A DNA stretch of 64,000 nt from Prevotella sp. E9-3 (GTDB lineage Bacteria > Bacteroidota > Bacteroidia > Bacteroidales > Bacteroidaceae): assembly GCF_022024015.1 (NCBI RefSeq), contig NZ_CP091786.1:2728001-2792000 (forward strand). The letters run 5' to 3'. This document shows positions 2,284 through 43,590 of the stretch, in pieces. How positions within the stretch are numbered: the stretch's first letter is position 1; each line of letters begins with the position of its first letter. The position numbers and the translations under genes are program-made. Below the pieces are notes generated by a model. The model worked only from the letters and a program-made list of their open reading frames with translations, was not told where the DNA came from and ran no database searches.

Positions 2284-4377
2284 ATGATTGTTTGCATAGC
2301 AGAGAAACCCAGTGTAGCGAAAGACATAGCACGCATCATCGGAGCCACGGCTTCACACGATGGATATATGGAAGGAAACGGCTATCAGGTGACGTGGACT
2401 TTTGGTCACTTGTGTGAGCTGAAAATGCCGGAAGACTACACCCCGATGTGGAAATCATGGAGCCTGTCGGCTCTTCCCATGATTCCTGCCCGCTTTGGTA
2501 TTCGCTTGAAGGAGGACCAAGGTATTAAGAAACAGTTTGCCACGATTGAAAAACTGATGTCGGAAGCTGAGAGCATCATCAACTGTGGTGACGCCGGCCA
2601 AGAGGGTGAACTGATTCAGCGCTGGGTGATGCAAAAGGCACAGGCTAAGTGTCCGGTAAAGCGTTTGTGGATTTCATCGATGACCGATGAAGCCATTCGT
2701 GAAGGCTTTGCCCAACTGAAAGATCAGGATGAGTATCAGACACTTTATCTGGCCGGACTCTCACGTGCTGTTGGCGACTGGCTGCTGGGTATCAACTGTA
2801 CCCGCCTTTATACTATTAAATATGGTCAGAACCGTCAGGTGCTATCTATCGGACGTGTTCAAACTCCTACCCTTGCACTGATTGTAAACCGTCAGAAAGA
2901 GATAGACAATTTCAAACCCGAACCTTATTGGGTGTTGGCCACCGTCTATCGCGACACTACGTTTACGGCAACATCAGGCAAGTTCACATCGAAGGAAGAG
3001 GGCGAAAAGGCTTTTGCTACGATAGAAGGGAAGCCATTCGAAGTGACGAAGGTTGAAAAGAAGAACGGCAAGGAAAATCCGCCATCCCTCTACGACCTGA
3101 CATCACTTCAGGTGGATTGCAACAAGAAATTCGGTTTCTCGGCAGAGATGACGCTGAACGTGATCCAACAACTCTACGAACAGAAACTGGCCACCTACCC
3201 ACGTGTGGACACCACTTTCCTTCCCGACGACGTTTATCCGAAGTGTCCGCAAATTATGAATGGTCTGTTCCAAGTACGTGTGGCAGGAACTCCGCTATAT
3301 GCCGACTTAGTAAAGACTCTTGGTGGAAAGCCTTTGCAGAAATCGAAGAAGGTGTTCGACTCCTCAAAAGTCACCGACCACCATGCCATCATTCCCACAG
3401 GCGTCGTACCACAGAATCTGCCTGATATTCAGCAGAAAGTGTACGACCTTATTGCACGCCGTTTTATTTCTGTATTCTATCCTGACTGTCAGTTTGCGCA
3501 GACCACCGTATTGGGAAAAGTTGACGAGATTGAATTCAAAGTCACTGGTCGCACCATATTGGATCCGGGATGGCGTGCTGTTTATGCCAAAGACGTTCAG
3601 AACGATGACGATGAAAAGAAGCCTGACGAAGAAGAACGCACCCTGCCCTCGTTCACCAAGGGTGAAAGTGGTCCTCACGTTCCTACGCTGACAGAGAAAA
3701 TGACCACCCCACCACCGTATTTCACCGAGGCTACCCTACTGCGTGCGATGGAGACTGCCGGCAAACTGGTTGACGATGAAGAACTGCGTCGTGCCATGAA
3801 AGAGAATGGCATCGGGCGACCATCTACACGAGCCGCTATCATCGAGACACTCTTCAAGCGTCACTACATCCGTAAGGATCGTAAGCGTTTGGTAGCCACG
3901 CCTACTGGCATAGAGCTCATCGACCTGATTCATGAAGAACTATTGAAAAGTGCAGAGCTAACAGGTATCTGGGAGAAGAAGCTACGCGATATTGAAGCAA
4001 AGAAATATGATGCCCAGGCATTCATAGAGGAACTGAAGCAGCAGGTTTCTGAGATTGTTCGTGAGGTGATTACGGATCCCACCAATCGCCGTATCACGGT
4101 AGTTGAAGAACCGAAAAAAGCAACTTCCAAACCTAGCAGCGATTCTTCTGCCGAGGGCGAGCAGAAAGCAGAGAAGCCCAAGAAGAAACGAGCCACAAAG
4201 AAGAAGGGCGACATCCAGCAAAAGGCTGTTGAGGCTGCCGAGGCAGTACGTGACGAACTCGTAGGAAAGCCCTGTCCCCTCTGCGGAGAAGGTCATATTA
4301 TCAAAGGAAAAACGGCTTACGGATGCTCCCGATGGAAAGAAGGATGCACATGGAGACAACCTTTCGCTGCGGAATAA
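2284..4377 (+). CDS. topB: DNA topoisomerase III (type IA)
   Basis: This is a 697-residue type IA topoisomerase that relaxes or decatenates DNA by passing a strand through a transient single-strand break. It begins MIVCIAEKPSVAKDIA, the TOPRIM start with its catalytic Glu. A TOPRIM acidic motif (GDAGQEGELI) lies near residue 102. The active-site Tyr is in the TYPRVDTTFLP motif near residue 305. A long Lys/Glu-rich linker follows, and the C-terminus is a small zinc-ribbon-like domain with four Cys (CPLCGEGHI, then YGCSRWKEGC). In the TOPRIM motif the second acidic position of the usual DxD is Gly. The start at 2284 is chosen because the -7 box lies just upstream, within the longer frame. Single gene, no operon partner visible. 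Confidence 0.93.
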   Translation: MIVCIAEKPSVAKDIARIIGATASHDGYMEGNGYQVTWTFGHLCELKMPEDYTPMWKSWSLSALPMIPARFGIRLKEDQGIKKQFATIEKLMSEAESIINCGDAGQEGELIQRWVMQKAQAKCPVKRLWISSMTDEAIREGFAQLKDQDEYQTLYLAGLSRAVGDWLLGINCTRLYTIKYGQNRQVLSIGRVQTPTLALIVNRQKEIDNFKPEPYWVLATVYRDTTFTATSGKFTSKEEGEKAFATIEGKPFEVTKVEKKNGKENPPSLYDLTSLQVDCNKKFGFSAEMTLNVIQQLYEQKLATYPRVDTTFLPDDVYPKCPQIMNGLFQVRVAGTPLYADLVKTLGGKPLQKSKKVFDSSKVTDHHAIIPTGVVPQNLPDIQQKVYDLIARRFISVFYPDCQFAQTTVLGKVDEIEFKVTGRTILDPGWRAVYAKDVQNDDDEKKPDEEERTLPSFTKGESGPHVPTLTEKMTTPPPYFTEATLLRAMETAGKLVDDEELRRAMKENGIGRPSTRAAIIETLFKRHYIRKDRKRLVATPTGIELIDLIHEELLKSAELTGIWEKKLRDIEAKKYDAQAFIEELKQQVSEIVREVITDPTNRRITVVEEPKKATSKPSSDSSAEGEQKAEKPKKKRATKKKGDIQQKAVEAAEAVRDELVGKPCPLCGEGHIIKGKTAYGCSRWKEGCTWRQPFAAE

Positions 4378-4463
4378 CAACTCATTAAGAATCTTCCTAA
4401 CAGAATTACCACTTTTCGCTATAAAGACAATAAAAGTCTGCCATACATCGTTATTTAATACGT

Positions 4464-8960: not shown

Positions 8961-8990
8961 ATAAGAAAACTCGTACCGTTTCTTATAGAA

Positions 8991-9027
8991 AACAAGAGTG
9001 CCATTAGCTTTGGCACTCTTGTTTTTT
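8991..9027 (+). terminator. Rho-independent terminator after thyA
   Basis: A 13-bp perfect stem (AACAAGAGTGCCA at 8991-9003 with its complement at 9011-9023) encloses a 7-base loop and is followed by a T run. Confidence 0.85.
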
Positions 9028-25934: not shown

Positions 25935-28158
25935 AGAAGCAGCACTGCTGCTCGGTCTTGTTGTGTTGTGATTTGCTGAAAAATTAGTATCTTTGCACTA
26001 GCATATACACCGATGTTGTCGAAGGCTATGCAATCTGTAAGGTTGTGATTTGCTGAAAAATTAGTATCTTTGCACTAGCATATACACCATAATTGCACAA
26101 CATCATTATTGTGTGCGAGTTGTGATTTGCTGAAAAATTAGTATCTTTGCACTAGCATATACACCACTTTTCTACGCCATTCCTTGTTTTCAATCGTTGT
26201 GATTTGCTGAAAAATTAGTATCTTTGCACTAGCATATACACCTTGAATTGTTTGTGTTCATTAACACGTTTGGTTGTGATTTGCTGAAAAATTAGTATCT
26301 TTGCACTAGCATATACACCGAAAGCAGATGTTAATATGTTCTTTAATTGTTGTGATTTGCTGAAAAATTAGTATCTTTGCACTAGCATATACACCATCTT
26401 GCCAACGTATTCTTGAGGATGTAGAGTTGTGATTTGCTGAAAAATTAGTATCTTTGCACTAGCATATACACCTTATCTTACTGAGGTCAACGTTCACGAT
26501 GTGTTGTGATTTGCTGAAAAATTAGTATCTTTGCACTAGCATATACACCCACGCCTTTTTATCTGTGAAGTCGTAAGCGGTTGTGATTTGCTGAAAAATT
26601 AGTATCTTTGCACTAGCATATACACCATACATGCGAATGGTAGAATCTGCAAGTTAGTTGTGATTTGCTGAAAAATTAGTATCTTTGCACTAGCATATAC
26701 ACCGGCCATTGCGTATGAGCAGTTGGCGAAAGAGTTGTGATTTGCTGAAAAATTAGTATCTTTGCACTAGCATATACACCCCAGCCTTCCGCGTGAACAA
26801 CATCATTATCGTTGTGATTTGCTGAAAAATTAGTATCTTTGCACTAGCATATACACCTTATCTTACTGAGGTCAACGTTCACGATGTGTTGTGATTTGCT
26901 GAAAAATTAGTATCTTTGCACTAGCATATACACCGTATCAGACTACTGGAAATCCCCTACACCGTTGTGATTTGCTGAAAAATTAGTATCTTTGCACTAG
27001 CATATACACCTATCGCCTGCAAAGATATGTTGCGTTCTTTGTTGTGATTTGCTGAAAAATTAGTATCTTTGCACTAGCATATACACCACATCAGCGGCAA
27101 AACCTAATGTCCGCCTGTTGTGATTTGCTGAAAAATTAGTATCTTTGCACTAGCATATACACCCATATTCAAAGGAAGGTGAATCATGCTTATGTTGTGA
27201 TTTGCTGAAAAATTAGTATCTTTGCACTAGCATATACACCCGAATTAAGAGCGGGAGCCACATCGGTTCTGTTGTGATTTGCTGAAAAATTAGTATCTTT
27301 GCACTAGCATATACACCTATGACAACATTCACTCTCAACGGAAAACTGTTGTGATTTGCTGAAAAATTAGTATCTTTGCACTAGCATATACACCTTACGT
27401 CGTGGTATGCGTATTCTTTGTGATGTTGTGATTTGCTGAAAAATTAGTATCTTTGCACTAGCATATACACCAGAACCCAAGACAGCATTCATGTTAAACT
27501 GTTGTGATTTGCTGAAAAATTAGTATCTTTGCACTAGCATATACACCAAATCGTGATCGGAGAAGACACACGATTGTGTTGTGATTTGCTGAAAAATTAG
27601 TATCTTTGCACTAGCATATACACCTCTTAGCATTGAGCTTATCAATCTCATCCTGTTGTGATTTGCTGAAAAATTAGTATCTTTGCACTAGCATATACAC
27701 CCGCACTGACCTTAAAGAGGCCGAGAGGGTGTTGTGATTTGCTGAAAAATTAGTATCTTTGCACTAGCATATACACCATTTTGTTCAGGGTAATGGTGCT
27801 TTTGGTGTTGTGATTTGCTGAAAAATTAGTATCTTTGCACTAGCATATACACCGCCGCCCGAATACGTCTGCTAAGTCTTGGTGTTGTGATTTGCTGAAA
27901 AATTAGTATCTTTGCACTAGCATATACACCATTATTTAATTTAGTTTTATTAATTATTAGTTGTGATTTGCTGAAAAATTAGTATCTTTGCACTAGCATA
28001 TACACCTGTTAGTTATTTTAATCTTTATATTTTAAGTTGTGATTTGCTGAAAAATTAGTATCTTTGCACTAGCATATACACCCTTAGCTTTATCTGTTTT
28101 ACTTTCATTTTGTTGTGATTTGCTGAAAAATTAGTATCTTTGCACTAGCATATACACC
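25888..28158 (+). CRISPR. Type II-C CRISPR array: 30 repeats of 47 bp, 29 spacers of 29-30 bp
   Basis: I counted 30 repeats and 29 spacers (20 of 30 bp and 9 of 29 bp), which sums exactly to the span. The repeat starts GTTGTGATTTGCTGAAAAAT and ends CACTAGCATATACACC. The first copy (25888-25934) is degenerate in its 5' half but intact in the last 24 bases. All others appear identical. Each repeat holds TATCTTTG at positions 24-31, with GTTG at positions 1-4 separated by 19 bases: a Bacteroidota promoter directed into the next spacer. The 5' half of the repeat pairs with the tracrRNA anti-repeat, which also sets the + strand as the crRNA strand. Spacers 8 (26473-26502) and 13 (26858-26887) are identical. 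The last three spacers, next to cas2, are very AT-rich. Confidence 0.98.
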
Positions 28159-28305: not shown

Positions 28306-29576
<1,271 letters not shown>

Positions 29577-33972: not shown

Positions 33973-34004
33973 TTTGGAAGAACAGAAGAAAAACCATATC
34001 TTTG
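33973..34004 (+). promoter_or_regulatory. Promoter of tracrRNA A
   Basis: TTTG (33973-33976), 20 bases, then TATCTTTG (33997-34004): a full Bacteroidota-type promoter. The core TATCTTTGCA is identical to that within each CRISPR repeat. Confidence 0.8.
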
Positions 34005-34006
34005 CA

Positions 34007-34096
34007 TCACTAATTTTTAGCAAATCACAATAAGGATTATTCCGTTGTGAAAACATTAGGTCCCGGTCCATCGTCCTCAACGGTGGACTTTTTTTT
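34007..34096 (+). ncRNA. tracrRNA A
   Basis: The anti-repeat ACTAATTTTTAGCAAATCAC (34009-34028) is complementary to the 5' half of the CRISPR repeat with one bulged base. A nexus-like hairpin AAGGATTATTCCGTT follows (34032-34046), as in other type II tracrRNAs. It ends in an 8-bp terminator stem (34066-34073 with 34081-34088) and a T8 run. It sits directly upstream of cas9 on the opposite strand and guides crRNA loading and processing. The transcription start is inferred from the promoter; the 3' end follows the terminator. Confidence 0.93.
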
Positions 34097-34202
34097 CTTT
34101 ATCGACTGCCATTTGTTTTAATGCTAATTGAGCAACAGTTCTCATATTTATAACATTGCCTACACAGTACCTTTTGGGCATTGTAAGATTTAATAAGAGA
34201 TT

Positions 34203-34248
34203 TAAAAAAATTCGGGGACGAAGCATACGAAAGTGCTTCGTCCCCGAA
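34203..34248 (-). terminator. Terminator of the second GLUG-type gene and its small partner
   Basis: A 15-bp perfect stem (34211-34225 with 34234-34248), followed on the - strand by a T-run (A-run on + at 34204-34210). Confidence 0.88.
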
Positions 34249-34273
34249 TGATGATTAACTATGATACAAATAG

Positions 34274-34477
34274 TTACCAAGCTTCTTCCCAAACATTGCC
34301 ACTTTTAGGCTCTTCGTCCTCGGGAAGAATCAGGTCGTCGTCAAGGCCAGAGGTCGTCAAGTTCGTAACAGACTCGGCCAGAATCTGTTGCTCAATGTCA
34401 GCCTCTATGACCTCCATCACGGGCTTCTGATATTCTTGCTTAGGCAAGCGATTAAAATCGATTACTTTCTTTGTCAT
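34274..34477 (-). CDS. Small acidic protein downstream of the second GLUG-type gene, function unknown
   Basis: The product is 67 residues: MTKKVIDFNRLPKQEYQKPV, then 'EVIEADIEQQILAESVTNLT', an acidic stretch and the end GNVWEEAW. It starts 18 bases after the stop of the large gene upstream and lies before the shared terminator, so the two form an operon. It has no signal peptide or membrane segment. It shares gene position, size, a Tyr-x-x-Pro motif and a Trp plus acidic C-terminus with the ORF at 18798-18977. A role tied to synthesis or secretion of the large partner is an inference from position only. Confidence 0.65.
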   Translation of the reverse strand: MTKKVIDFNRLPKQEYQKPVMEVIEADIEQQILAESVTNLTTSGLDDDLILPEDEEPKSGNVWEEAW

Positions 34478-34495
34478 ATCTGAGTTCTCCTTTCT

Positions 34496-37400
34496 TTACT
34501 TCTTGCTCTGGCAAACGTCTCCTTGCGTCGCCGAGCGGATGATTACCTTTTTACCATTCTGAATATAGACACCCTTCTGTGTGGCCTTGCTGATGCGGCG
34601 GCCGTCCAGTGTGTAGGTGGCATTGTCGGTGCTGGCTGCTCTGTCAGTGCCAATGGCAATGATGCCCGTGGTCTCGCCGTCGCCAAAGTCTATGCTGAAG
34701 GCGCGGGCAAGACTGGCTGTCTCGCCCTTCAGCTGGAAGTAGGCGCGGAAGCCCTTGATATTGGCGGGCAGTGCCGAGGGGTTCAGCAGCGTGTTGCCTG
34801 CTGCCAGGAAGAGCACGGCCTTCGTGTTGCCGTCGGGAATGGTCGTTGCGCCCAACGTGGGGATGAAATCGACATCGGTCGAGGTGAAGGGCTGTGCATC
34901 CTTGCTCACGATGGCTCCCGTGAAGGGTGCTGTGGAGAGGTCAGTGTTGGCAGCGACCTTCACCAGATAGGGCTTGCCGGCCTCGATGCTGGCAGCATTG
35001 GCGAAGTTTAGGGTCAGCGTTCCGTCTGCGAACGTTGCGCTGGTGAGTTCCTTCACGGTCCAGCCCTCGGGGATGGCGGTGCTGAACGGAGCAGCAAACG
35101 TATTCCACGAACCTGCCTGCAGTGTGCGCGTCAGGGTGATTTCATATACCTGGCCGTCGTTCTCCGTGAGCCATGCCTGGTTGTCTGTGGCTGTCTCTGC
35201 CAATATCTTCGTGTTCTTCGTCCACGTAGCACTGATGGTAACATCGGCATCAGGCATCGTAAGCGTCGTACCGCTCAGTGTTCCGGCCGACGCGGTGTAC
35301 TGGTCGAAGGAATAGCCCGTAGCAGCGTCGCCGTGGCTCAGTGTGAGGCTCACGTTGTCGGCGCTGCCGGCATAGTACACATCATTATACTTGAGGCCCG
35401 TGGCGTAGGCAGTGATAGCACTGACGTCGTACTCTGTGCCGTCACCACTGATGACGAGGCTGGTCACGTCGGTGCCGGCGGTGATGCAGCGCATCTGCTT
35501 GGCTTCCTTGATCAGTCTTGATGCTGCGGCCACATCGTTGTAATAGCAGTTTGTGAGGGTTCCAAGTACCTTGCCGCCGACAAACATTTTGTGTCCGCTG
35601 TAATTCTGGATGCTGATGGCAGAGGGTGCAAACACGCAGTTGTTCAACGTGGCGGAAGAGCCCGCTTGGGTATAGCCGACCATTCCGCCACCCTCGTAGC
35701 CTTTGGCATTGCTGTAGGTGATGCTGCCGGTGAAGAGGCAACCATTGAGGGTGAGTGATTTGTTCTCGTTGACTCTACCTACGAAGGCGCCACCATCAAT
35801 GTCACTGCCATTGCTTGAACTGATGGCAACCTCACTCCAGCAGTTGGTGATGGTGCTGTTCTCGCAGAAGCTTGCAATGCTTGCAGGACGCAGGCCTGTG
35901 GTGCTGATACTACCTGTAATATGCAGGTTCTTGATGGTTGCACCTTGAATACAACCAAACGGGGCTGTGCACTGACCGGAACCGTTTAAGGTCACGTCGA
36001 GGGTCTTTCCGTTGCCATCATAGATTCCGCCGAAAGGTTTGTAACTGTTATTTGTGGTACTTGGACCCAAAGTTGTGGTCACGCTGATGTCTTTGGTCTG
36101 ACTGAAGTACACCCCGCTGTACGTATTGCCATTGTCGACATTTGCTGACAGCGTGTTCCAGTCGGCTGTTGACGTGATCAGATATGGGTCGGCCTCTGTG
36201 CCGGCACACTCGCGGTATGTAGCACCAATGGTCACATCGGCATCGGGCATAGTCAGTGTCGGACCGTTGGAGGTAGTATTGGCGAGGGTGCCGCCCGATG
36301 CAGTATAGGAGGTGAATACGCAGCCTGTCTTGCTAAAATTCAGGTCAAGCGTCACCGACTCACTATTGCCGGCACAGAATGTGTCGCCATACTTGAGGCC
36401 TTTGCCGTAGACGGCGATGCCGCTGACGTCGTAGGTGGTCGTGGCAGCACCGAGGCCGTTGATGATCACGCCGTCGCCGGCAATGATGTTACGAGCCTGC
36501 TTACCCTGAACGGTCAGGCTTGATGCTGCGGCCACTTCGTTGTAATAGCAGTTTGTGAGGGTTCCGCTTGCATTGCCGATAAACATGTTGTGACTCTGAT
36601 ATTTTGTGATGGTAATGGCAGAAGGTGCAAACACGCAGCCGTTCAGCTTTACAGTACCTTTTGCCCAGCCGACCATGCCGCCACCCTCGTAGCCATTGGC
36701 ATTGCTGTAGGTGATGCTGCCGGTGAACAGGCAACCGTTTAGGGTGACTGTAGAGCCAGACTCCGTACGGGCGACGAATGCACCGCAGTCTATGTCTTTG
36801 GCACGACTTGACGACAGCGCCACCTCGCTCCAGCAGTTCGTGATGGTGCTGCTCTTGGCGAAACCGGCGATGCTGGCAATGCGCATGCCTGCCGTGGTCT
36901 CAGTGCCGGTGATGTGCAGGTTTTTGACGGTTGCATTTTCGATATATCCGAACGGGGCCGACGTGGCATCAGAAGTTGTCACGCTGATGTTGAGGTTCAT
37001 AGTGTGACCCTGCCCGTCGAAGGTGCCGCAGAAGGGATTCTTCAAGTCATTGCTCGTCCTTGTGGTGATGCCGCTGATGTCGGCAGTCAGCTTCACCGTC
37101 TGGCCGCTGTAGGTGCTGCCGTTGTTGATATCGGAACAGAACTTCTCCCAATCGGCTTTCGAGGCAATAATGAAATCGCCCGTTGCATCAGTGGACAGAC
37201 TGTACTCCTTCACCAAGCGTACTGAGAAACCGAAGGCTCGACTGTTAGTATCACTTAGATCCAGGCCTCCGGCAAAGAACATGCGTTTCGCGTCGGTCGT
37301 AGTAGCCGGCGTACTGGACCAATAGAAACCACGGTCGTTTATATTATCGATTGTCGTTCCGTTACGCCAGCCTGCCGCAGGCAGAAATACACAACCGGCG

Positions 37401-38008
37401 GCCTCAAACGAAGCCCAGTTGCTGCCGGAATATACCGCTCCTGTGTAGTTGTCGGGATAAATAACCATACCCTTCTTTCCATTCACACTCTGATTTAGTG
37501 TGTAACTCTTGCCAGCACCTTTGCCGCCATTAACCGTGCGGGTAGTGAGGAGATACGTCCACTCGGCCATGGACAGTGTGCGCCAGCCTAAGCCGATGAG
37601 TGCGCCCCAGTCAGACTTCAACGACTCAGAAGCAACTTTGCCGTAGCCGTTGGTGTTATTGGTGGCACTTGAAGAGGTAATGCCATACTTGTTTACCGCA
37701 GTCCAGGTGCTGGAGGCTCCCACCCAGCCAAAGAGGTCAACGGTGGCATTCTCGCTGATGTAAGGAGAAGATGCTGTCACCTTGGTGTTGCCTGCGGCGT
37801 TGCCGATGTAGTCCCACTGATGCTCGGCAAAGGCCCAACTCCAGTTACTGCCGTTGTAAGTTGCCTGCAGGTTGCCCTGTGCGAAGCTGACCTTCTTAGT
37901 GGCGCTGACGCTGAACACACCGTCCAGCAAGTTTTTCTGCGCCCATGTTCCCTGCGTCACTGCCGTAAGAAGCAGGGCGAGAAGCGAAAGAAGTTTTGTT
38001 TTTCTCAT
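34496..38008 (-). CDS. Large secreted FISUMP/GLUG-repeat protein with T9SS C-terminal domain
   Basis: The product is 1170 residues with a signal peptide (1-23, ending TQGTWAQ). Residues about 30-265 resemble the Bacteroidota 'major paralogous'/FISUMP surface domain (VSFAQGNLQATYN, WTYLLTTR, GFYWSSTPATTTD, GFSVRLVKE). Two long homologous repeats (about 275-600 and 600-890) follow, each with GLUG-type units (CGTFDGQGHTMNLNI; GGIYDGNGKTLDVTL) and the motif TNCYYNEVAAASSL or a close variant. The C-terminus has the T9SS sorting pattern TYTLDGRRISKATQKGVYIQ but extends about 13 residues past the usual KKVII end. Probable surface adhesin with an unknown ligand. Located between the two tracrRNA copies, so possibly acquired with the accessory segment. 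Confidence 0.72.
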   Translation of the reverse strand: MRKTKLLSLLALLLTAVTQGTWAQKNLLDGVFSVSATKKVSFAQGNLQATYNGSNWSWAFAEHQWDYIGNAAGNTKVTASSPYISENATVDLFGWVGASSTWTAVNKYGITSSSATNNTNGYGKVASESLKSDWGALIGLGWRTLSMAEWTYLLTTRTVNGGKGAGKSYTLNQSVNGKKGMVIYPDNYTGAVYSGSNWASFEAAGCVFLPAAGWRNGTTIDNINDRGFYWSSTPATTTDAKRMFFAGGLDLSDTNSRAFGFSVRLVKEYSLSTDATGDFIIASKADWEKFCSDINNGSTYSGQTVKLTADISGITTRTSNDLKNPFCGTFDGQGHTMNLNISVTTSDATSAPFGYIENATVKNLHITGTETTAGMRIASIAGFAKSSTITNCWSEVALSSSRAKDIDCGAFVARTESGSTVTLNGCLFTGSITYSNANGYEGGGMVGWAKGTVKLNGCVFAPSAITITKYQSHNMFIGNASGTLTNCYYNEVAAASSLTVQGKQARNIIAGDGVIINGLGAATTTYDVSGIAVYGKGLKYGDTFCAGNSESVTLDLNFSKTGCVFTSYTASGGTLANTTSNGPTLTMPDADVTIGATYRECAGTEADPYLITSTADWNTLSANVDNGNTYSGVYFSQTKDISVTTTLGPSTTNNSYKPFGGIYDGNGKTLDVTLNGSGQCTAPFGCIQGATIKNLHITGSISTTGLRPASIASFCENSTITNCWSEVAISSSNGSDIDGGAFVGRVNENKSLTLNGCLFTGSITYSNAKGYEGGGMVGYTQAGSSATLNNCVFAPSAISIQNYSGHKMFVGGKVLGTLTNCYYNDVAAASRLIKEAKQMRCITAGTDVTSLVISGDGTEYDVSAITAYATGLKYNDVYYAGSADNVSLTLSHGDAATGYSFDQYTASAGTLSGTTLTMPDADVTISATWTKNTKILAETATDNQAWLTENDGQVYEITLTRTLQAGSWNTFAAPFSTAIPEGWTVKELTSATFADGTLTLNFANAASIEAGKPYLVKVAANTDLSTAPFTGAIVSKDAQPFTSTDVDFIPTLGATTIPDGNTKAVLFLAAGNTLLNPSALPANIKGFRAYFQLKGETASLARAFSIDFGDGETTGIIAIGTDRAASTDNATYTLDGRRISKATQKGVYIQNGKKVIIRSATQGDVCQSKK

Positions 38009-38111
38009 TGTTTTGTTTTTAAATGATTAAACTTATTTGTTAATGATAAATGTTTGTTTCCTAATGCCTGTCGCCGAATCACAAGGGACAGTCCCCTATC
38101 AAAGCTGATGT

Positions 38112-38327
38112 TTATAAACTGTCGATTGGGATGAGCTGGTACTCCTTCTCCACGTCCACGTCGTCGAGGGCATTCCCACATGCAGGCGCGGAAAAAGGGC
38201 GCCTGTAGCCGATTTTAAGGGGGGGGGGGGGGGTAACTATGCCGCTCACCACCAAGCAGTTACGGCCGCTCAGAGTCAGTGTCCGGGCGGTGTCGGGAGT
38301 GTGGGGTATGTGGAGGTAGCGGGGCAT
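38112..38327 (-). CDS. Hypothetical 71-residue ORF containing a C15 homopolymer
   Basis: The frame reads MPRYLHIPHTPDTARTLTL, continues through four prolines encoded by the homopolymer, and ends 'VDVEKEYQLIPIDSL'. I do not recognise it. The start half and end half are joined in frame only at the present tract length. A change by one base would cut the protein, so either it is phase-variable or it is not a real gene. The acidic C-terminal part lends weak support to coding. Confidence 0.3.
   Translation of the reverse strand: MPRYLHIPHTPDTARTLTLSGRNCLVVSGIVTPPPPLKIGYRRPFSAPACGNALDDVDVEKEYQLIPIDSL
38219..38233. repeat. G15 homopolymer
   Basis: Fifteen consecutive G on the + strand, far longer than any other homopolymer in the window. 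It is a candidate slipped-strand site, but also a classic place for sequencing error. Confidence 0.85.
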
Positions 38328-38405
38328 GAGTGATTTGTTATTCGATTTGTGGGGTTAGATTGTTTGTTTTGAGAGGTAAAGAGAGGGGACTGGGGGCGTG
38401 AGAGG

Positions 38406-38505
38406 TCAGAATAGGTCTGAGTGGGTGCCGGTCTGCAGGAAGAGAAGCGTCAGCTGCGTGTCGCTCTGTTCCCATGTGATACCGTATATGCCATCGCTAT
38501 AAGCC
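38406..38505 (-). pseudogene. C-terminal fragment of a RelE/YafQ-type toxin
   Basis: The - strand encodes AYSDGIYGITWEQSDTQLTL, then LFLQTGTHSDLF and a stop at 38406-38408. The ending TGTHSDLF, with a preceding strand pattern, is that of RelE/YafQ-family mRNA-cleaving toxins, which are about 90 residues long. Only about 32 residues remain, with no start codon, directly after the antitoxin gene. The catalytic core is therefore missing and no toxin can be made. Confidence 0.6.
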
Positions 38506-38727
38506 CATTTCCTTATAAAAGTCCTTTAGCGAGTCGTAATGTGTCACTCTTCCGTGCTTCACGTCGTCCATCGCCTCGCGGTAGCCCGCGGTCTTGGTGA
38601 CGTCGTACTCCTTGGGCTTGGCATCCTTCTGTACCTTGACAGAGGTGACGCCCATAAGCATCTTGCAGGCCTGCTTCACCTTCGAAACGAGGCTCTCGTC
38701 GGGGACTTGTAATACTAACGTTGCCAT
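38497..38727 (-). CDS. Antitoxin-like protein (orphan)
   Basis: The product is 76 residues, MATLVLQVPDESLVSKVKQA at the start and DSLKDFYKEMGL at the end. Size, the N-terminal strand-helix pattern and position directly before a RelE/YafQ-type C-terminal fragment support a type II antitoxin. The start is supported by ATAATCTATATTG immediately upstream (+ strand view) and a strong -7 box at 38868-38875. The toxin partner is broken, so this may be a retained antitoxin that still binds its own promoter or protects against a related toxin elsewhere. Confidence 0.65.
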   Translation of the reverse strand: MATLVLQVPDESLVSKVKQACKMLMGVTSVKVQKDAKPKEYDVTKTAGYREAMDDVKHGRVTHYDSLKDFYKEMGL

Positions 38728-38875
38728 AATCTATATTGTCTTTTGAATTGTCTTTTATTGTCTGTCTGTAGTTTCGCAGCCTTTCGGCTGACAAAACTGC
38801 GGTTGAGCGAGAGCAATGATGCTTGCATCAATTGCCGAGCGTGAGCAGTTTCGCGGCTTTCACGCCGCAAAGGTA
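38728..38875 (-). promoter_or_regulatory. Promoter and structured 5' leader of the antitoxin gene
   Basis: The - strand -7 box TACCTTTG lies at 38868-38875. The roughly 130-base leader can fold into several hairpins: GCGGCGTGAAAGCCGC, a larger one at about 38808-38841 (GCAATTGATG against CATCATTGC) and GCCGAAAGGC. The 91-residue open frame crossing this region (38715-38990) would start upstream of the promoter and is not credible. Confidence 0.55.
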
Positions 38876-38974
38876 CAAAAAAATTATACAAAAAACCGCA
38901 TTTGGGGAGGATATTAACACGATTTCTGTGCAGAATACTATTCAATTTGTCAAGATAAGTTGTATCGCCCACGT

Positions 38975-39049
38975 TTAGTTTCTTCGGCATTTACCACTGC
39001 CCCACCCTATACTGTGTGTGCCAAAACCCATGCCAGGAATCTTGATTTT
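38975..39049 (-). pseudogene. Decayed fragment of a second cas9 (RuvC-I start)
   Basis: The - strand encodes KIKIPGMGFGTHSIGWGSGK, which aligns with the Cas9 start KKILGLDLGTNSIGWAVVK. About 34 of 45 bases match the cas9 5' coding DNA (33872-33916). The catalytic Asp8 has become Gly, a base is inserted near the 3' side and a stop follows five codons later. It lies just after the four-helix-bundle gene, which itself is driven by a copy of the cas9 promoter. This is what remains of a duplicated cas9. Confidence 0.75.
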
Positions 39050-39054
39050 GGGTG

Positions 39055-39843
39055 TTATCGCTTTAGAGAGTTCTGAGAGTTCTGAGGATTCTGAATATTC
39101 TGAGGATCCTGAGGATTCTGAGGATTCTGAATATTCTGAGGATCCTGAGGATTCTGATTTTTCAGATTATTCCGATAGTTTAGCCGACTTTGGAACATTC
39201 TTTCTTTGATACCTCCTTCGGTGACAAAGCGATTTTGCATGGTGATAAGGAGCTTGTGGAGCATGAAAGAGGCCTGATGGATGAGGGTGATACACAGATT
39301 GGCAATCTCTTCGTCGTTCATGCGACGGATGGTCTGGCCATAATCCTTGATAATCTGTTGGCTTCTGGCATATTGCCTCATCTTGTCGTATCGGGGATGG
39401 AGATTACTCCATTGCTGCATGTCGCGAACTCTAAGGTAGTCTTCATAGTCGTCGAGCAGTTCTTCCAAACTGGCTTTCGCCACGTTGGTTAGCTTAATCT
39501 CTGTTTCACTGGACGTAGCTGCCGCCTGGTTTCCTTCTGCGATATTTTGCTTGCCACTGCGTGCTGCTTGTACCATTTGGTCAACAGTCCGATCGCCTTT
39601 TTGCAGATAGTGTTGTGTGAAGTAATAGGTGATATCGTAGATAATCTCGGTCACTTTATAGACTCTTAAATGACGATAGTGCCCATGTTGGGGAAGAAAG
39701 GTCAAGGGGGAAGAGGACTGAGAGGACTGATTGCTCTGAGTATTCGGAGTGTTCGGAGTATTCTGAATATTCTGATTATTCGGAGTATTCGGAGAATTCT
39801 GAGAATTCTGAGAATTCTGAAAATTTTGAGTGTTAGGGTTCAT
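39055..39843 (-). CDS. Four-helix-bundle protein with Asn/Gln/Pro-rich termini, under a cas9-like promoter
   Basis: The product is 262 residues from the ATG at 39843; the frame to 39918 runs through the promoter. Residues about 1-50 are low-complexity repeats of QN, NTP and QNS. Residues about 60-215 form a helical domain (YRHLRVYKVTEIIYDITYYF, ARSGKQNIAEGNQAAATSSE, ASLEELLDDYEDYLRVR) of the four-helix-bundle/'S23' family related to 23S rRNA intervening-sequence proteins and to the Avd accessory proteins of retroelements. The C-terminus is another repeat tract (NPQDPQNIQNPQN). The family's role is unclear; some members bind nucleic acid. Its promoter and untranslated leader are homologous to those of cas9 right up to the start codon, so it is likely co-regulated with cas9. 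A cas9 fragment follows directly. Confidence 0.75.
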   Translation of the reverse strand: MNPNTQNFQNSQNSQNSPNTPNNQNIQNTPNTPNTQSNQSSQSSSPLTFLPQHGHYRHLRVYKVTEIIYDITYYFTQHYLQKGDRTVDQMVQAARSGKQNIAEGNQAAATSSETEIKLTNVAKASLEELLDDYEDYLRVRDMQQWSNLHPRYDKMRQYARSQQIIKDYGQTIRRMNDEEIANLCITLIHQASFMLHKLLITMQNRFVTEGGIKERMFQSRLNYRNNLKNQNPQDPQNIQNPQNPQDPQNIQNPQNSQNSLKR

Positions 39844-39868
39844 TTTGTGGCTTATAGTTTTTCTGCTA

Positions 39869-39876
39869 CAAAAGTA
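39869..39876 (-). promoter_or_regulatory. -7 promoter element of the four-helix-bundle gene (cas9 promoter copy)
   Basis: The - strand reads TACTTTTG, 26 bases before the ATG at 39843, equivalent in position to the cas9 box. Confidence 0.65.
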
Positions 39877-39893
39877 CAATATTATTTCGAGAT

Positions 39894-39925
39894 ATTGGAA
39901 GAACAGAAGAAAAACCATATCTTTG
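39894..39925 (+). promoter_or_regulatory. Promoter of tracrRNA B
   Basis: ATTG (39894-39897), 20 bases, TATCTTTG (39918-39925). The -7 box and downstream sequence are identical to tracrRNA A; the -33 element is one base weaker. Confidence 0.75.
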
Positions 39926-39927
39926 CA

Positions 39928-40012
39928 TCACTAATTTTTAGCAAATCACAATAAGGATTATTCCGTTGTGAAAACATTCAAGGAGGGGTAGGCAACTACC
40001 TCGCCTTTTTTA
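39928..40012 (+). ncRNA. tracrRNA B: second tracrRNA-like RNA with a different 3' end
   Basis: It has the same anti-repeat (39930-39949) and nexus (39953-39967) as tracrRNA A, base for base. After AAAACATT the tail differs: a new stem pairs AAGG.GGGGTAG (39980-39991) with CTACCTC.CCTT (39996-40007) around GCAA, followed by a T run to 40011. All parts needed to pair with crRNA and bind Cas9 are present, so it could be functional. It has no cas9 of its own beside it. It could act as a backup tracrRNA, or as a variant with altered stability or Cas9 affinity. Whether it is expressed is unknown. Confidence 0.8.
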
Positions 40013-40167
40013 TTAATCCTGGGTACATTATTTTTTCAGTAACCATGGAATGGATTTCAAAAAGCAGTCCACATGGTTAGCTGCTGACTGTCATTCAATT
40101 CTTTTTTAATGCAAATTGAGCAACAGTTCTTATCATTTTGGATGATAAGTGGAGGAGCACTGAAACA

Positions 40168-40225
40168 AATTATAGCTATAATTGCGAAAATTATAGCTAA
40201 AATTCAAATAATTATAGCTATAATT
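40168..40225. repeat. Three 16-bp palindromes with 21-bp phasing (AATTATAGCTATAATT)
   Basis: Copies begin at 40168, 40189 and 40210, exactly 21 bp apart (two helical turns). The middle copy has one substitution. They look like operator sites for a cooperatively binding protein. Confidence 0.75.
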
Positions 40226-40285
40226 TATTTTATTTGTTCATTTATCTCATTGCAATACAATTGAGGTTATTTCCCAATAGAATGA

Positions 40286-40360
40286 ATTTTGGCCATTATT
40301 TTCCGAATTTTGGCCAAAATTAAAAAAATAATGGCCAAAATTTAAAATGAATGCCATTAT
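40286..40360. repeat. Three to four phased GGCC-centred palindromes upstream of corA
   Basis: TTTTGGCCA-type palindromes have GGCC centres at 40291, 40312 and 40333, exactly 21 bp apart. A half-site TGCCATT sits at the next 21-bp position. The array ends just upstream of the corA promoter region (40365-40395), so it probably serves as regulator-binding DNA for corA. Confidence 0.75.
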
Positions 40361-40387
40361 AATGTTCTTTAATTGAAAAAGAATCGC

Positions 40388-40395
40388 TACCTTTG
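40388..40395 (+). promoter_or_regulatory. -7 promoter element for corA
   Basis: TACCTTTG (TAnnTTTG) lies about 210 bases before the corA start, giving a long leader. Confidence 0.6.
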
Positions 40396-40429
40396 CACTC
40401 GAATAATGTATAACTAAACAACAACAATT

Positions 40430-40465
40430 ATGGACGATTACCCGGCGGATACATGTAAACGTTAG
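40430..40465 (+). CDS. Possible 11-residue leader peptide before corA
   Basis: ATG GAC GAT TAC CCG GCG GAT ACA TGT AAA CGT TAG encodes MDDYPADTCKR. It lies early in the corA leader. Asp/Pro-rich nascent starts are known, from work on other bacteria, to destabilise ribosomes when magnesium is low, and mgtL-type leaders exploit this. Use of such a mechanism here is my inference; the ORF could be chance. Confidence 0.35.
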   Translation: MDDYPADTCKR

Positions 40466-40606
40466 CCAGGGGGACCGGTGGCAAGGCTGCTAATCCCCTT
40501 GCCAATATTCAATTAAGAGAGTATATAGTTAACAGTTAATAGTGGAACATACTATTCACTTTTTGCTATTCACTAGTCACTATTCATCATTAAAGGATTA
40601 GCAACA
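40466..40606 (+). promoter_or_regulatory. Structured corA leader with alternative hairpins
   Basis: GGCAAGG (40480-40486) pairs with CCTTGCC (40497-40503). Alternatively GGGG (40469-40472) can pair with CCCC (40495-40498), which would break the first stem. No U-run follows, so it is not a simple terminator. 40526-40590 contains short repeats of ACTATTCACT. It could be a regulatory RNA; no known riboswitch class is recognised. Confidence 0.4.
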
Positions 40607-41533
40607 ATGAAGACTTATTGGAACACCCAGAATGGGCTGAACCAGCTGAGCGAGTGGCAGGAGAACTGCTGGATTCAACTGACATGCCCAACAGAAGACG
40701 AGCAACACGAACTGGAAAAGCAGTTTGGCATTCCCGATTATTTCATTTCAGATATTAGCGATACCGACGAACGGGCCCGTTATGAATACGACGATGGCTG
40801 GATGCTCATTATTCTGCGCATTCCCTATGTCAAGGAAATAAGAAGCCGCACGCCATACACCACCGTGCCATTGGGTATCATTCACAAGCGGAACGTTACC
40901 ATCACGGTGTGCTACTACGAAACAAATATGATGATTGATTTCGTGAGCTATCAGCAGAAACGTGCAGTGGGCTTTACCGACCATGTGGATATGATTTTCC
41001 GCCTGTTCTACTCGTCGGCAGTGTGGTATCTGAAGCGACTCAAGCAGATCAATTCGCTCATAGACAAGGCCAAACGGAATCTGGACCGGGACGTGAACAA
41101 TGAGAGCCTGATTGGACTTTCACGTCTGCAGGACTCACTCACCTATTTCCAGACATCTATTCGTGGCAATGAGACCCTGTTGTCGAAACTGAAGTTCAAA
41201 CTGCAGATTGACGAACTTGATGCCGACCTTATTGAAGACGTAAGCATCGAGATGACGCAGGCCCGAGAAACAACCAGTATATACTCAGACATTTTGGAAT
41301 CGACGATGGACACCTACTCTTCCATCATCAACAACAACATGAACACCGTGATGAGAACGCTGACCTCGGTATCGATTCTGATGATGTTTCCAACGCTGAT
41401 TGCCTCATTGTTCGGAATGAACCTGATCAACGGAATGGAGAACCACCCCTTGGGATTCCCATTCGCCTTGGTTCTCTCAGTAGGAGTGTCGGCCTTCGCA
41501 TGGTGGCTGCTGCACAGAAAGGGACTCGTATAG
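40607..41533 (+). CDS. corA: CorA-family magnesium/divalent cation transporter
   Basis: The product is 308 residues. A long soluble N-terminal domain (1-245) is followed by two C-terminal membrane helices, with the CorA signature GMN in SLFGMNLINGMEN at the pore mouth. The second helix and a short basic tail (WWLLHRKGLV) end the protein. It forms a pentameric channel in the inner membrane that admits Mg2+ or related ions. It is transcribed alone from the promoter at 40388-40395 with a long structured leader and phased palindromes upstream, so it is likely regulated at more than one level. Confidence 0.93.
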   Translation: MKTYWNTQNGLNQLSEWQENCWIQLTCPTEDEQHELEKQFGIPDYFISDISDTDERARYEYDDGWMLIILRIPYVKEIRSRTPYTTVPLGIIHKRNVTITVCYYETNMMIDFVSYQQKRAVGFTDHVDMIFRLFYSSAVWYLKRLKQINSLIDKAKRNLDRDVNNESLIGLSRLQDSLTYFQTSIRGNETLLSKLKFKLQIDELDADLIEDVSIEMTQARETTSIYSDILESTMDTYSSIINNNMNTVMRTLTSVSILMMFPTLIASLFGMNLINGMENHPLGFPFALVLSVGVSAFAWWLLHRKGLV

Positions 41534-41650
41534 TGTAGGATTACACCTGTATGATGCCTTATACGGAGAATATAGAACGTAAAATGGTTAAATAATGCAA
41601 AATGGCTTTGTTTTTATCTTTATACCTTTTAGCAATTAACCTTTTTTACG

Positions 41651-41658
41651 TAACTTTG
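41651..41658 (+). promoter_or_regulatory. -7 promoter element for the DUF349 gene
   Basis: TAACTTTG (TAnnTTTG) ends 48 bases before the start codon. Confidence 0.55.
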
Positions 41659-41706
41659 ACCGCAATTTATGATTGAACAAAACCATTTCAGTAACTAAAA
41701 AGTTAA

Positions 41707-43590
41707 ATGATGGACTCTCAAGAGAATGCCCTGATTAAGGGAGAACAGCAAGAGGAGAAAGTTGAAGCAACTCAGCAGAAAGAAACTGTAGCCGTTGCCG
41801 AGACACCTCAAGTGGAAGAAACAGAAGAAAATGCAGCCGCAATGCAGATTGAAGGCGATGCAGCAGTCGGAGAACGCAAGATTTATCAGACCAAGAAAGA
41901 GGTCTTGGAGCGCGTGAAAGAGATTGCTCATGCCGACGAAATCCCCCAGAAAGACGAGGTGGACTATCTGAAGACAGCATTCTACAAACTGCACATTGCC
42001 GAACGCGAAGCCCAGCAAAAAGCCTATCTGGAGGCTGGCGGCGATCCTGAAACCTATCAGGTGGTTCGCGATGAGGACGAGGAAGCGTTCAAGGCCGAAA
42101 TGGGCATCATCAAAGAACGCCGTCAGCAGCAGTTCCGTGAGCAAGAGGCTGAGAAAGAGAATAATCTCAAGAAGAAATTAGATATCATTGAGAAACTGAA
42201 GGCTATGGTTACCTCGCCCGAGGAAGCTTCCAAGACCTATCAGGAATTCAAGACCCTCCAGCAGGAATGGCGCGAGATAAAGTCTGTTCCGGCTGAGCGT
42301 GCCAACGAACTGTGGCGCAACTACCAGCTCTATGTAGAGCAGTTCTACGACCTTCTGAAGCTGAACAGCGAGGCTCGCGAACTGGACTTCAAGAAGAACC
42401 TGGAGGCAAAGACCCACCTGTGTGAGGCTGCCGAGAAACTGGCTGAAGAGGAAGACGTGATCAGTGCTTTTCACCAGTTGCAGAAGCTGCACCAGGAATA
42501 TCGCGAGATTGGCCCTGTAGCCAAAGAACTGCGCGAAGAGATCTGGCTGCGCTTCAAGAATGCCTCAACAGTCATCAACAAGCGCCATCAGCAGCACTTT
42601 GAAGATTTGCGTGCACGCGAAGAGGAAAACCTCAAAAAGAAGACCGCACTCTGCGAAAAGGTTGAAGCCATCTGTGCAGAAGAGAGCAAGACCAGTGCTG
42701 ACTGGGAGCGCCAAACCAAGGAAATTATTGACATACAAACAGAGTGGAAGACCATCGGTTTTGCTCCACAGAAGATGAACGTCAAGATTTTTGAACGTTT
42801 CCGTGCTGCTTGCGATTCTTTCTTCGCTGCAAAAGCCGAGCATTTCAAGAACATGAAGGACACCTTCAAGGAGAATGTTGAGAAGAAACGTGCCCTCATT
42901 GAGAAAGCCAAGGCATTGCAAGACTCTACCGAATGGCGCTCTACCAGCGACAAGCTGATTGCCCTGCAGAAAGAGTGGAAGACCATTGGCATGGTGCCCA
43001 GAAAACTGGGCGACCAGTTGTGGGAGGAATTCCTTGGTGCCTGCAACAAATTCTTCGAGGCCCGCAACGCACAGGGTGCCGACCAGCGCACTGAAGAGCG
43101 CCTGAACCTGGAGAAGAAACAGAACGTTATTGAGCGTTTGAAGAAAGCTGCCGAAGAGGGCGGTGACGAACTCCAGGCTCGCGTTCAGCAACTCGTTGAG
43201 GAATACAACTCAATTGGCCATGTGCCCTTCAAGGAGAAAGACAAACTTTACCAGAGCTACCACGAAGTGCTCGACAAGTTGTATAAGGAACTGAACGTGA
43301 ATGTGGCCAAGCGCCGTCTGAGCAAGTTCAAGGACAACCTGAAGCAGGTGGCCGAGCGTGGCGAACAGGCTCTCGACAACGAGCGCACCCGCTTGATGCG
43401 CCAGTACGATGCCATCAAGCAGGAAGTGCAGACCTACGAGAACAACCTGGGATTCCTCAGTGCTTCGTCAAAGAAAGGCAATTCGCTGATTGACGAGATG
43501 AACCGCAAGGTACAGAAGCTGAAAGACGACCTGCAGCTGGTAAAGGAAAAAATCAAGGCCATCGATGCCGAGAACACTGCACAGGAATAG
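41707..43590 (+). CDS. DUF349-repeat coiled-coil protein
   Basis: The product is 627 residues. After an acidic Gln/Glu-rich start (1-60) come four to five DUF349 units, each with the pattern LQ.EWR.IG.VP (FKTLQQEWREIKSVPAE, LHQEYREIGPVAKELREE, IQTEWKTIGFAPQKM, LQKEWKTIGMVPRKLGD, EEYNSIGHVPFKEKDKLY). A C-terminal coiled coil (about 560-620) follows. The protein is cytoplasmic and highly charged. Function in Bacteroidota is not established; DUF349 proteins in other bacteria have been linked to stress or RNA-related roles, which I cannot confirm here. Single gene with its own promoter and terminator. Confidence 0.85.
   Translation: MMDSQENALIKGEQQEEKVEATQQKETVAVAETPQVEETEENAAAMQIEGDAAVGERKIYQTKKEVLERVKEIAHADEIPQKDEVDYLKTAFYKLHIAEREAQQKAYLEAGGDPETYQVVRDEDEEAFKAEMGIIKERRQQQFREQEAEKENNLKKKLDIIEKLKAMVTSPEEASKTYQEFKTLQQEWREIKSVPAERANELWRNYQLYVEQFYDLLKLNSEARELDFKKNLEAKTHLCEAAEKLAEEEDVISAFHQLQKLHQEYREIGPVAKELREEIWLRFKNASTVINKRHQQHFEDLRAREEENLKKKTALCEKVEAICAEESKTSADWERQTKEIIDIQTEWKTIGFAPQKMNVKIFERFRAACDSFFAAKAEHFKNMKDTFKENVEKKRALIEKAKALQDSTEWRSTSDKLIALQKEWKTIGMVPRKLGDQLWEEFLGACNKFFEARNAQGADQRTEERLNLEKKQNVIERLKKAAEEGGDELQARVQQLVEEYNSIGHVPFKEKDKLYQSYHEVLDKLYKELNVNVAKRRLSKFKDNLKQVAERGEQALDNERTRLMRQYDAIKQEVQTYENNLGFLSASSKKGNSLIDEMNRKVQKLKDDLQLVKEKIKAIDAENTAQE

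Follow-up and report, generated by a model that had tools for sequence, protein, structure and literature searches.

The 64,000-nucleotide stretch of Prevotella sp. E9-3 DNA analyzed here (the window) contains a CRISPR-Cas locus in which an array is followed by cas2, cas1, and cas9, all on the minus strand, and then by a tracrRNA gene, tracrRNA A, that is divergent from cas9 (Table 1). The locus is of type II-C: cas9, cas1, and cas2 fill the space between the array and tracrRNA A on the minus strand, other ORFs there overlap these three, and neither csn2 nor cas4 is found there. In the whole genome there is one match to the Cas9 domain RuvC_III. A second tracrRNA gene, tracrRNA B, lies 5.9 kb from the first. 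The two share an exact direct repeat of 84 nt, at a spacing of 5921, that covers the promoter region, anti-repeat, and nexus, after which A and B carry different terminator hairpins. The only full-length matches to these 84 nt in the 3.73-Mb genome are A and B themselves (E = 5.5e-38 each), and at E ≤ 0.001 a single additional match appears, inside the CRISPR array. A sequence-only reading of this DNA had described B as a complete-looking second tracrRNA identical to the first over about 80 bases of promoter, anti-repeat, and nexus. Our analysis bears out both points, and B is also present in a close relative, RUI513.

Table 1. Features of the CRISPR-Cas9 locus and of the region around tracrRNA B (window coordinates)
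Feature	Position	Strand	Evidence
CRISPR array, 28 spacers among 29 exact repeats of 47 nt	25965..28158	.	
cas2	28306..28644	-	Profile match
cas1	28641..29576	-	Profile match
cas9, 1442 aa	29591..33919	-	TIGR01865 cas_Csn1, 494 bits; RuvC_III, HNH_4
tracrRNA A promoter, anti-repeat, nexus	33974..34057	+	Exact copy of 39895-39978
tracrRNA A terminator, type T1	34065..34098	+	Fold, terminator scan; orthologous in RUI513
4.8-kb segment between A and cas9 stub, absent from RUI513; holds ORF 34496-38008	34196..38952	.	
cas9 5'-end stub, one-base frameshift, closest to another lineage	38978..39043	-	DNA alignment; 66 nt
Four-helix-bundle protein gene, between ex-cas9 5' UTR and cas9 stub	39055..39843	-	TIGR04258 67 bits, TIGR02436 29 bits on ORF 39055-39918
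cas9 5' UTR homologue, box TACTTTTG (39869-39876 on +), in front of four-helix-bundle gene	39844..39894	-	Aligns to cas9 5' UTR at A; promoter role inferred
tracrRNA B promoter region, -7 type box TATCTTTG at 39918-39925	39895..39925	+	Identical to A; promoter predicted
tracrRNA B anti-repeat	39930..39951	+	Pairing to array repeat at -26.8 kcal/mol, bulge of one nt
tracrRNA B nexus hairpin and linker	39952..39978	+	Fold as A; many genomes in the genus and order have similar sequence
tracrRNA B terminator, type T2, with T run and stem (39980-40007)	39979..40012	+	Fold -15.9 kcal/mol; terminator scan; L042/L192-like

Up to the end of the nexus, tracrRNA B has the elements of A. The consensus for the -7 box of Bacteroidetes is TAnnTTTG, and the putative promoter box of B, identical in A, ends 4 nt before the anti-repeat. 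Predicted pairing with the array repeat is equal for both copies (-26.8 kcal/mol each), and the nexus hairpins are the same in sequence and fold. Given this equal pairing energy, B looks functional; it is probably a redundant spare. The terminator of B is a predicted Rho-independent hairpin that folds at -15.9 kcal/mol, compared to -14.2 for that of A, with a T run closing both. Because the terminator scan also finds chance sites (6 found compared to 6.7 expected), better evidence for terminator B is its likeness to other tracrRNA terminators: a nearly identical hairpin follows the tracrRNA of locus L042, and a similar one follows that of L192. The sequence-only reading had called this hairpin unrelated but still a good terminator, and the likeness corrects the first point, as the hairpin is not unrelated to known ones. 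An Rfam search gave nothing at the gathering score and, at E ≤ 10, only weak matches far below it.

Homology between the two copies extends beyond the 84 nt, in that the region upstream of B aligns, with divergence, to the cas9 5' UTR upstream of A. At B, this stretch precedes a four-helix-bundle protein gene with Asn/Gln-rich repeats at both ends, for which we chose the start at 39843. The old cas9 promoter may now drive this gene. Beyond the gene lies the short cas9 stub, which was detected solely through direct DNA alignment against a null drawn from the window. Aligned with 132 distinct cas9 5' ends, it scores highest, at 77, with L190/L141-type cas9 (L141 is the RUI513 locus), compared to 63 for the resident cas9, while 300 random window stretches gave a mean of 32.5 (sd 4.6, maximum 56). 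Its translation departs from Cas9 at several usual residues, and it is absent at E ≤ 1 from the results of a tblastn search of 34100-41000 with the complete Cas9. Since the stub scores above the null and best with the L190/L141 types, its DNA indicates that B once had a cas9 next to it, whose lineage was probably not that of the resident gene. These findings bear on the idea that B is a simple segmental tandem duplicate of A whose terminator mutated later. Such an event would account for the 84 identical nucleotides and has a precedent in G475 (L217), where promoter and terminator were copied too, but terminator B resembles endings found in other genomes and the stub is nearer another cas9 lineage than the resident cas9; we consider this origin very unlikely.

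Other sequences were noted in the same region. A repeat pair (34116-34145 and 40104-40133) was considered as evidence of orthology and rejected as a dispersed repeat; a query containing it matched two places outside the window with E below 1e-4. Two imperfect AT-rich inverted repeats, with arms 79% and 90% complementary, lie at 40163-40342 upstream of a CorA-like gene. A small ORF of 76 aa at 38499-38727 on the minus strand appears by eye to be of antitoxin type and had no NCBIfam match.

The close relative RUI513 is a metagenome-assembled genome of rumen origin, as inferred from its isolate name, and its locus is known from a single 15-kb contig, one among at least 119 stretches from a contig scan. 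It is 97.3% identical to the window over 3392 nt (window 38953-42335), a stretch that includes the stub, the four-helix-bundle gene, tracrRNA B, and CorA and runs into the gene after it. TracrRNA A is present in RUI513 as well, again ending in T1, and its core and terminator are nearly identical to those in the window. The 4.8 kb between A and the stub are missing. To the left of A, cas1 and cas2 are 88% and 94% identical, compared to only 27% for cas9 over 1030 aligned residues (32% over 195 at the N-terminus); the array repeats differ, and none of the spacers compared (28 and 38) are shared. Similarity between the two genomes changes at the promoter/core border of tracrRNA A, with orthology on the right side. 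Close cas1, distant cas9, and the same right flank, the combination by which we recognize module exchange, are thus found together in this pair. As cas9, repeats, and spacers are unlike to the left of A and orthologous sequence lies to its right, the alignments indicate that these near relatives hold different CRISPR modules at one site and that the module was swapped in situ, tracrRNA A forming a border. By the same comparison, which covers the locus itself in two genomes (the window and RUI513), both tracrRNAs are indicated to be older than the split between them. Absence of B from close relatives and decay of its anti-repeat, the pattern that the sequence-only reading had named as evidence against a second tracrRNA, is not what we find, as RUI513 carries B.

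The same pair of genomes provides a measure of constraint. Between the window and RUI513, B differs over its 118 nt by 2 indels and 3 substitutions, a substitution rate of 2.5%, compared to 0.6-4.6% for neighboring stretches; excess conservation of B over its flanks is not seen in this comparison. The 53-nt core of B has no substitutions and 1 indel, where chance would give about 0.5-2 substitutions. Within the 34 nt of the terminator there are 2 substitutions and 1 indel; one of the two substitutions lies in the stem, where pairing is kept as G-U. In RUI513 terminator B folds more weakly (-12.1 compared to -15.9 in the window), and the anti-repeat of B is one T shorter, with a pairing energy of -24.9. 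In the window, A and B match at every position of a 27-nt piece within the promoter half, yet over this piece the A copies of the window and RUI513 differ at 12 positions (the B copies at 1), and G176, the nearest cas9 relative compared, differs from the window at 10 of 27. Because of the latter difference, identity between A and B in this piece requires either recent homogenization or a common origin. The sequence-only reading had attributed the preserved pairing parts to selection or recent duplication. Our comparison favors recent duplication, as this piece is identical between A and B yet differs from copy A of RUI513 and from G176. Between the two genomes B evolves no more slowly than its surroundings.

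To compare tracrRNA endings, we sorted them into types T1 and T2 by crude text patterns, which over 176 places gave 48 T1, 44 T2, and 84 unclassified, with at least L163, L209, and L210 looking misassigned to T1. T1 follows tracrRNA A in the window and the tracrRNA of the nearest compared cas9 (G176), while T2 follows that of the next nearest (G325). On a tree of 68 cas9 N-termini the type label needs 10 changes, at least 9 of them forced by starred branches, compared to a mean of 23 when labels are shuffled. The count of 10 is rough because the patterns are crude, 84 of the 176 places are unclassified, and the distal copy of L188 stands as its own row in a tree that warns of long branches. 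Since the changes are fewer than in shuffles and the label differs between the window or G176 and G325, terminator type appears mostly to go with cas9, yet to switch. Judged by its place after tracrRNAs beside other cas9 genes, T2 is an ordinary tracrRNA ending. This bears on the proposal of the sequence-only reading that two isoforms tune Cas9 loading, stability, or self-regulation in the manner of Streptococcus. One core does occur with two tails in both the window and RUI513, as would be expected if B were a regulatory isoform whose other tail alters stability, loading, or feedback. Against this, T2 is an ending in common use, A and B are the same upstream of the anti-repeat, selection on B is not seen between the window and RUI513, and tail type switches between close cas9 relatives. 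In addition, B differs from A at the 3' side, whereas the long tracrRNA of Streptococcus is extended at its 5' end. The defining trait of that long form is a longer transcript whose additional sequence directs Cas9 to the cas promoter. We regard a regulatory role of this kind as highly improbable.

Second tracrRNAs occur elsewhere. A match spanning the nexus was found in 164 of the 171 loci searched, excluding those of the window, and two matches were found in 5 loci: among the matches listed, the two-core loci are L072, L188 (G179), L217 (G475), and L141 and L204, the last two from one genome, RUI513. Tandem tracrRNAs are thus present in at least five genomes, the window and RUI513 included. 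In a sample of 398 genomes of the genus, 100 have some match to the 84 nt and 103 have a RuvC_III match. We kept the 85 strongest matches (80 genomes, E up to 1.4e-7), which mostly cover the nexus, and dropped 27 weaker ones, most of them limited to the promoter half or anti-repeat, with one (G344) spanning the nexus. Of these best 85, 69 lie within 12 kb of a RuvC_III match and 16 lie farther away or have none. Two cores near one cas9 were found only in G000 and G179, which makes the tandem state rare in the genus (2 of 398). In G179 the tracrRNA proximal to cas9 has a T2 ending, and the distal copy has T1 and no promoter box; the distal copy of L072 has a change in the nexus and likewise lacks the box. 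Some second copies therefore decay.

Among the 16 unaccompanied matches, two (G171 and G043:C86) are on short contigs with the 5' part of cas9 and one (G179:C40) is at a contig end, and the other 13 include relics such as G037, where a cas9 stub remains and RuvC_III is unmatched, and G050:C22, with no recognizable terminator. These cases are relevant to the possibility that B, although of the origin proposed below, is a remnant of a replaced module, silent or decaying, with its sequence kept intact by recency or by conversion with A. Undetectable constraint, the weaker terminator and shorter anti-repeat of RUI513, the distal copies of L072 and G179 without a promoter box, and the orphan G050:C22 all fit a relic. 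On the other hand, B has its promoter box, anti-repeat, nexus, and strong hairpin intact in the window, all of them are present in RUI513, and the adjoining cas9 has been reduced to 66 nt, and we therefore think a relic unlikely.

In G337, also among the 13, a gene for Cas12a (TIGR04330, 1401 bits; L178:5014-8984) directly adjoins an intact II-C tracrRNA. By eye, a II-C-like relic repeat (near 3035-3090) and an array of Cas12a type (near 4180-4380) can also be made out in L178, and the locus looks like an in-place replacement of type II by type V. Two further observations concern orphan or exact cores. L186 has an orphan tracrRNA nexus near 8983-9014, with a lone CRISPR-repeat-like sequence just upstream as judged by eye, in a genome (G244) for which no RuvC_III match was listed. 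L070 and L137 have exact tracrRNA cores and are two stretches of one 23-kb Ignavibacteria contig (CALMST010000014.1).

In four species (G053, G065, G078, and G332; loci L044, L045, L046, and L181), the sole tracrRNA match precedes a gene that resembles a U32 peptidase (its NCBIfam matches are below the cut-off, and identity to the G065 gene is 87-90%), and cas9, cas1, cas2, and the array are on another contig, with cas9 of G065 cut by the contig end. A search for the tracrRNA core in the cas9 stretches of these four genomes matched only 12-nt pieces of repeat. The unlinked tracrRNAs retain promoter box, nexus, and terminator, and their anti-repeats fit the array repeat of their own genome at -24.6 to -24.8 kcal/mol. 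They appear to work in trans, and retention of a tracrRNA far from cas9 appears possible, so the 5.9-kb distance of B should be no obstacle. A note of caution follows for annotation: an anti-repeat near a cas9 may belong to another cas9, and the true tracrRNA is possibly elsewhere in the genome.

We consider it likely that B is the intact second tracrRNA gene of an earlier Cas9 occupant, left behind by in-place module exchange and retained as a redundant spare. The stub, the T2 terminator, the presence of A and B in RUI513, the unlike cas9 genes, arrays, and repeats to the left of A, and the orthology to its right all point to module exchange. The tandem tracrRNAs of other genomes, the four unlinked ones, and the intact tracrRNA beside Cas12a are in keeping with it. 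Under this proposal, a II-C module (array, cas2, cas1, and cas9) would be swapped in place by recombination with a tracrRNA as one border. A swap that left the old tracrRNA beyond the new one would give the order cas9, tracrRNA A, old cas9 stub, tracrRNA B, and B would have arrived with the cas9 whose stub remains. B would be transcribed from its own promoter, pair with the same pre-crRNA, and be loaded by the resident Cas9. The 84-nt identity would stem from recent homogenization or from a promoter shared since duplication. The lack of excess conservation and the state of B in RUI513, with its weaker terminator and one T fewer in the anti-repeat, speak against the part of the proposal that makes B a working spare. 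The persistence of B suggests that tracrRNAs are able to outlast the Cas9 proteins they serve.

A bolder and more tentative reading, which we hold as possible without favoring it, makes the tracrRNA, and not Cas9, the resident part of such loci. Its core would act as a recombination hinge at which Cas9 or even Cas12a modules are swapped, one tracrRNA would serve Cas9s that are about 27-32% identical, and B would be both a maintained spare and a homology arm that enables swaps. The locus gives a concrete view of effector change in type II-C systems, in which one border would lie at the tracrRNA and old tracrRNAs can persist. Because the window and RUI513 combine a nearly identical tracrRNA A with very unlike Cas9s, they form a natural pair in which the limits of compatibility between Cas9 and guide RNA are testable.

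Parts of this picture are already in print, as far as the available excerpts of the sources indicate: Cas9 is reported to be shuffled in place, and a Prevotella locus is described as having two anti-repeats. In situ Cas9 shuffling was reported in II-C loci of Flavobacteriales (PMC12669027), which share with the window the phylum and the combination of close cas1 and distant cas9 at one site. The present case differs in that tracrRNA A marks the border and a cas9 stub remains together with an older tracrRNA, neither a tracrRNA border nor leftover tracrRNAs being mentioned in the excerpted text of that report. Searching the open-licence literature, we did not find any case of a swap bordered by a tracrRNA, of a complete second tracrRNA retained in more than one genome, or of an unlinked tracrRNA that fits a distant array. 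According to PMC8730458 (in the excerpt available), tracrRNAs lie within CRISPR loci, and the long-form tracrRNA of Streptococcus II-A systems, a longer form in which 9 nt match the cas promoter, is regulatory. Two tracrRNA forms for one Cas9 are common to that system and the window, with the difference that B is a separate gene and departs from A in its 3' tail. In CRISPR-I of Prevotella intermedia, two anti-DR loci lie upstream of a type II cas9, as the two anti-repeats do in the window, and the repeats are likewise 47 bp long (PMC5608340, as excerpted). These loci bear on the statement of the sequence-only reading that no II-C locus with a second tracrRNA placed before another gene is known to have been described; a complete second II-C tracrRNA gene was not otherwise found in the open-licence literature searched. 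According to the same excerpt, a terminator was predicted for one P. intermedia locus only and a strong promoter for neither, whereas both genes in the window look complete and are identical over 84 nt. With the usual tracrRNA of Bacteroidota II-C loci, B has in common an anti-repeat, nexus, terminator, and putative promoter box of its own and an orientation divergent from cas9; unlike in those loci, a single cas9 here is accompanied by two complete-looking tracrRNA genes with terminators of different types.
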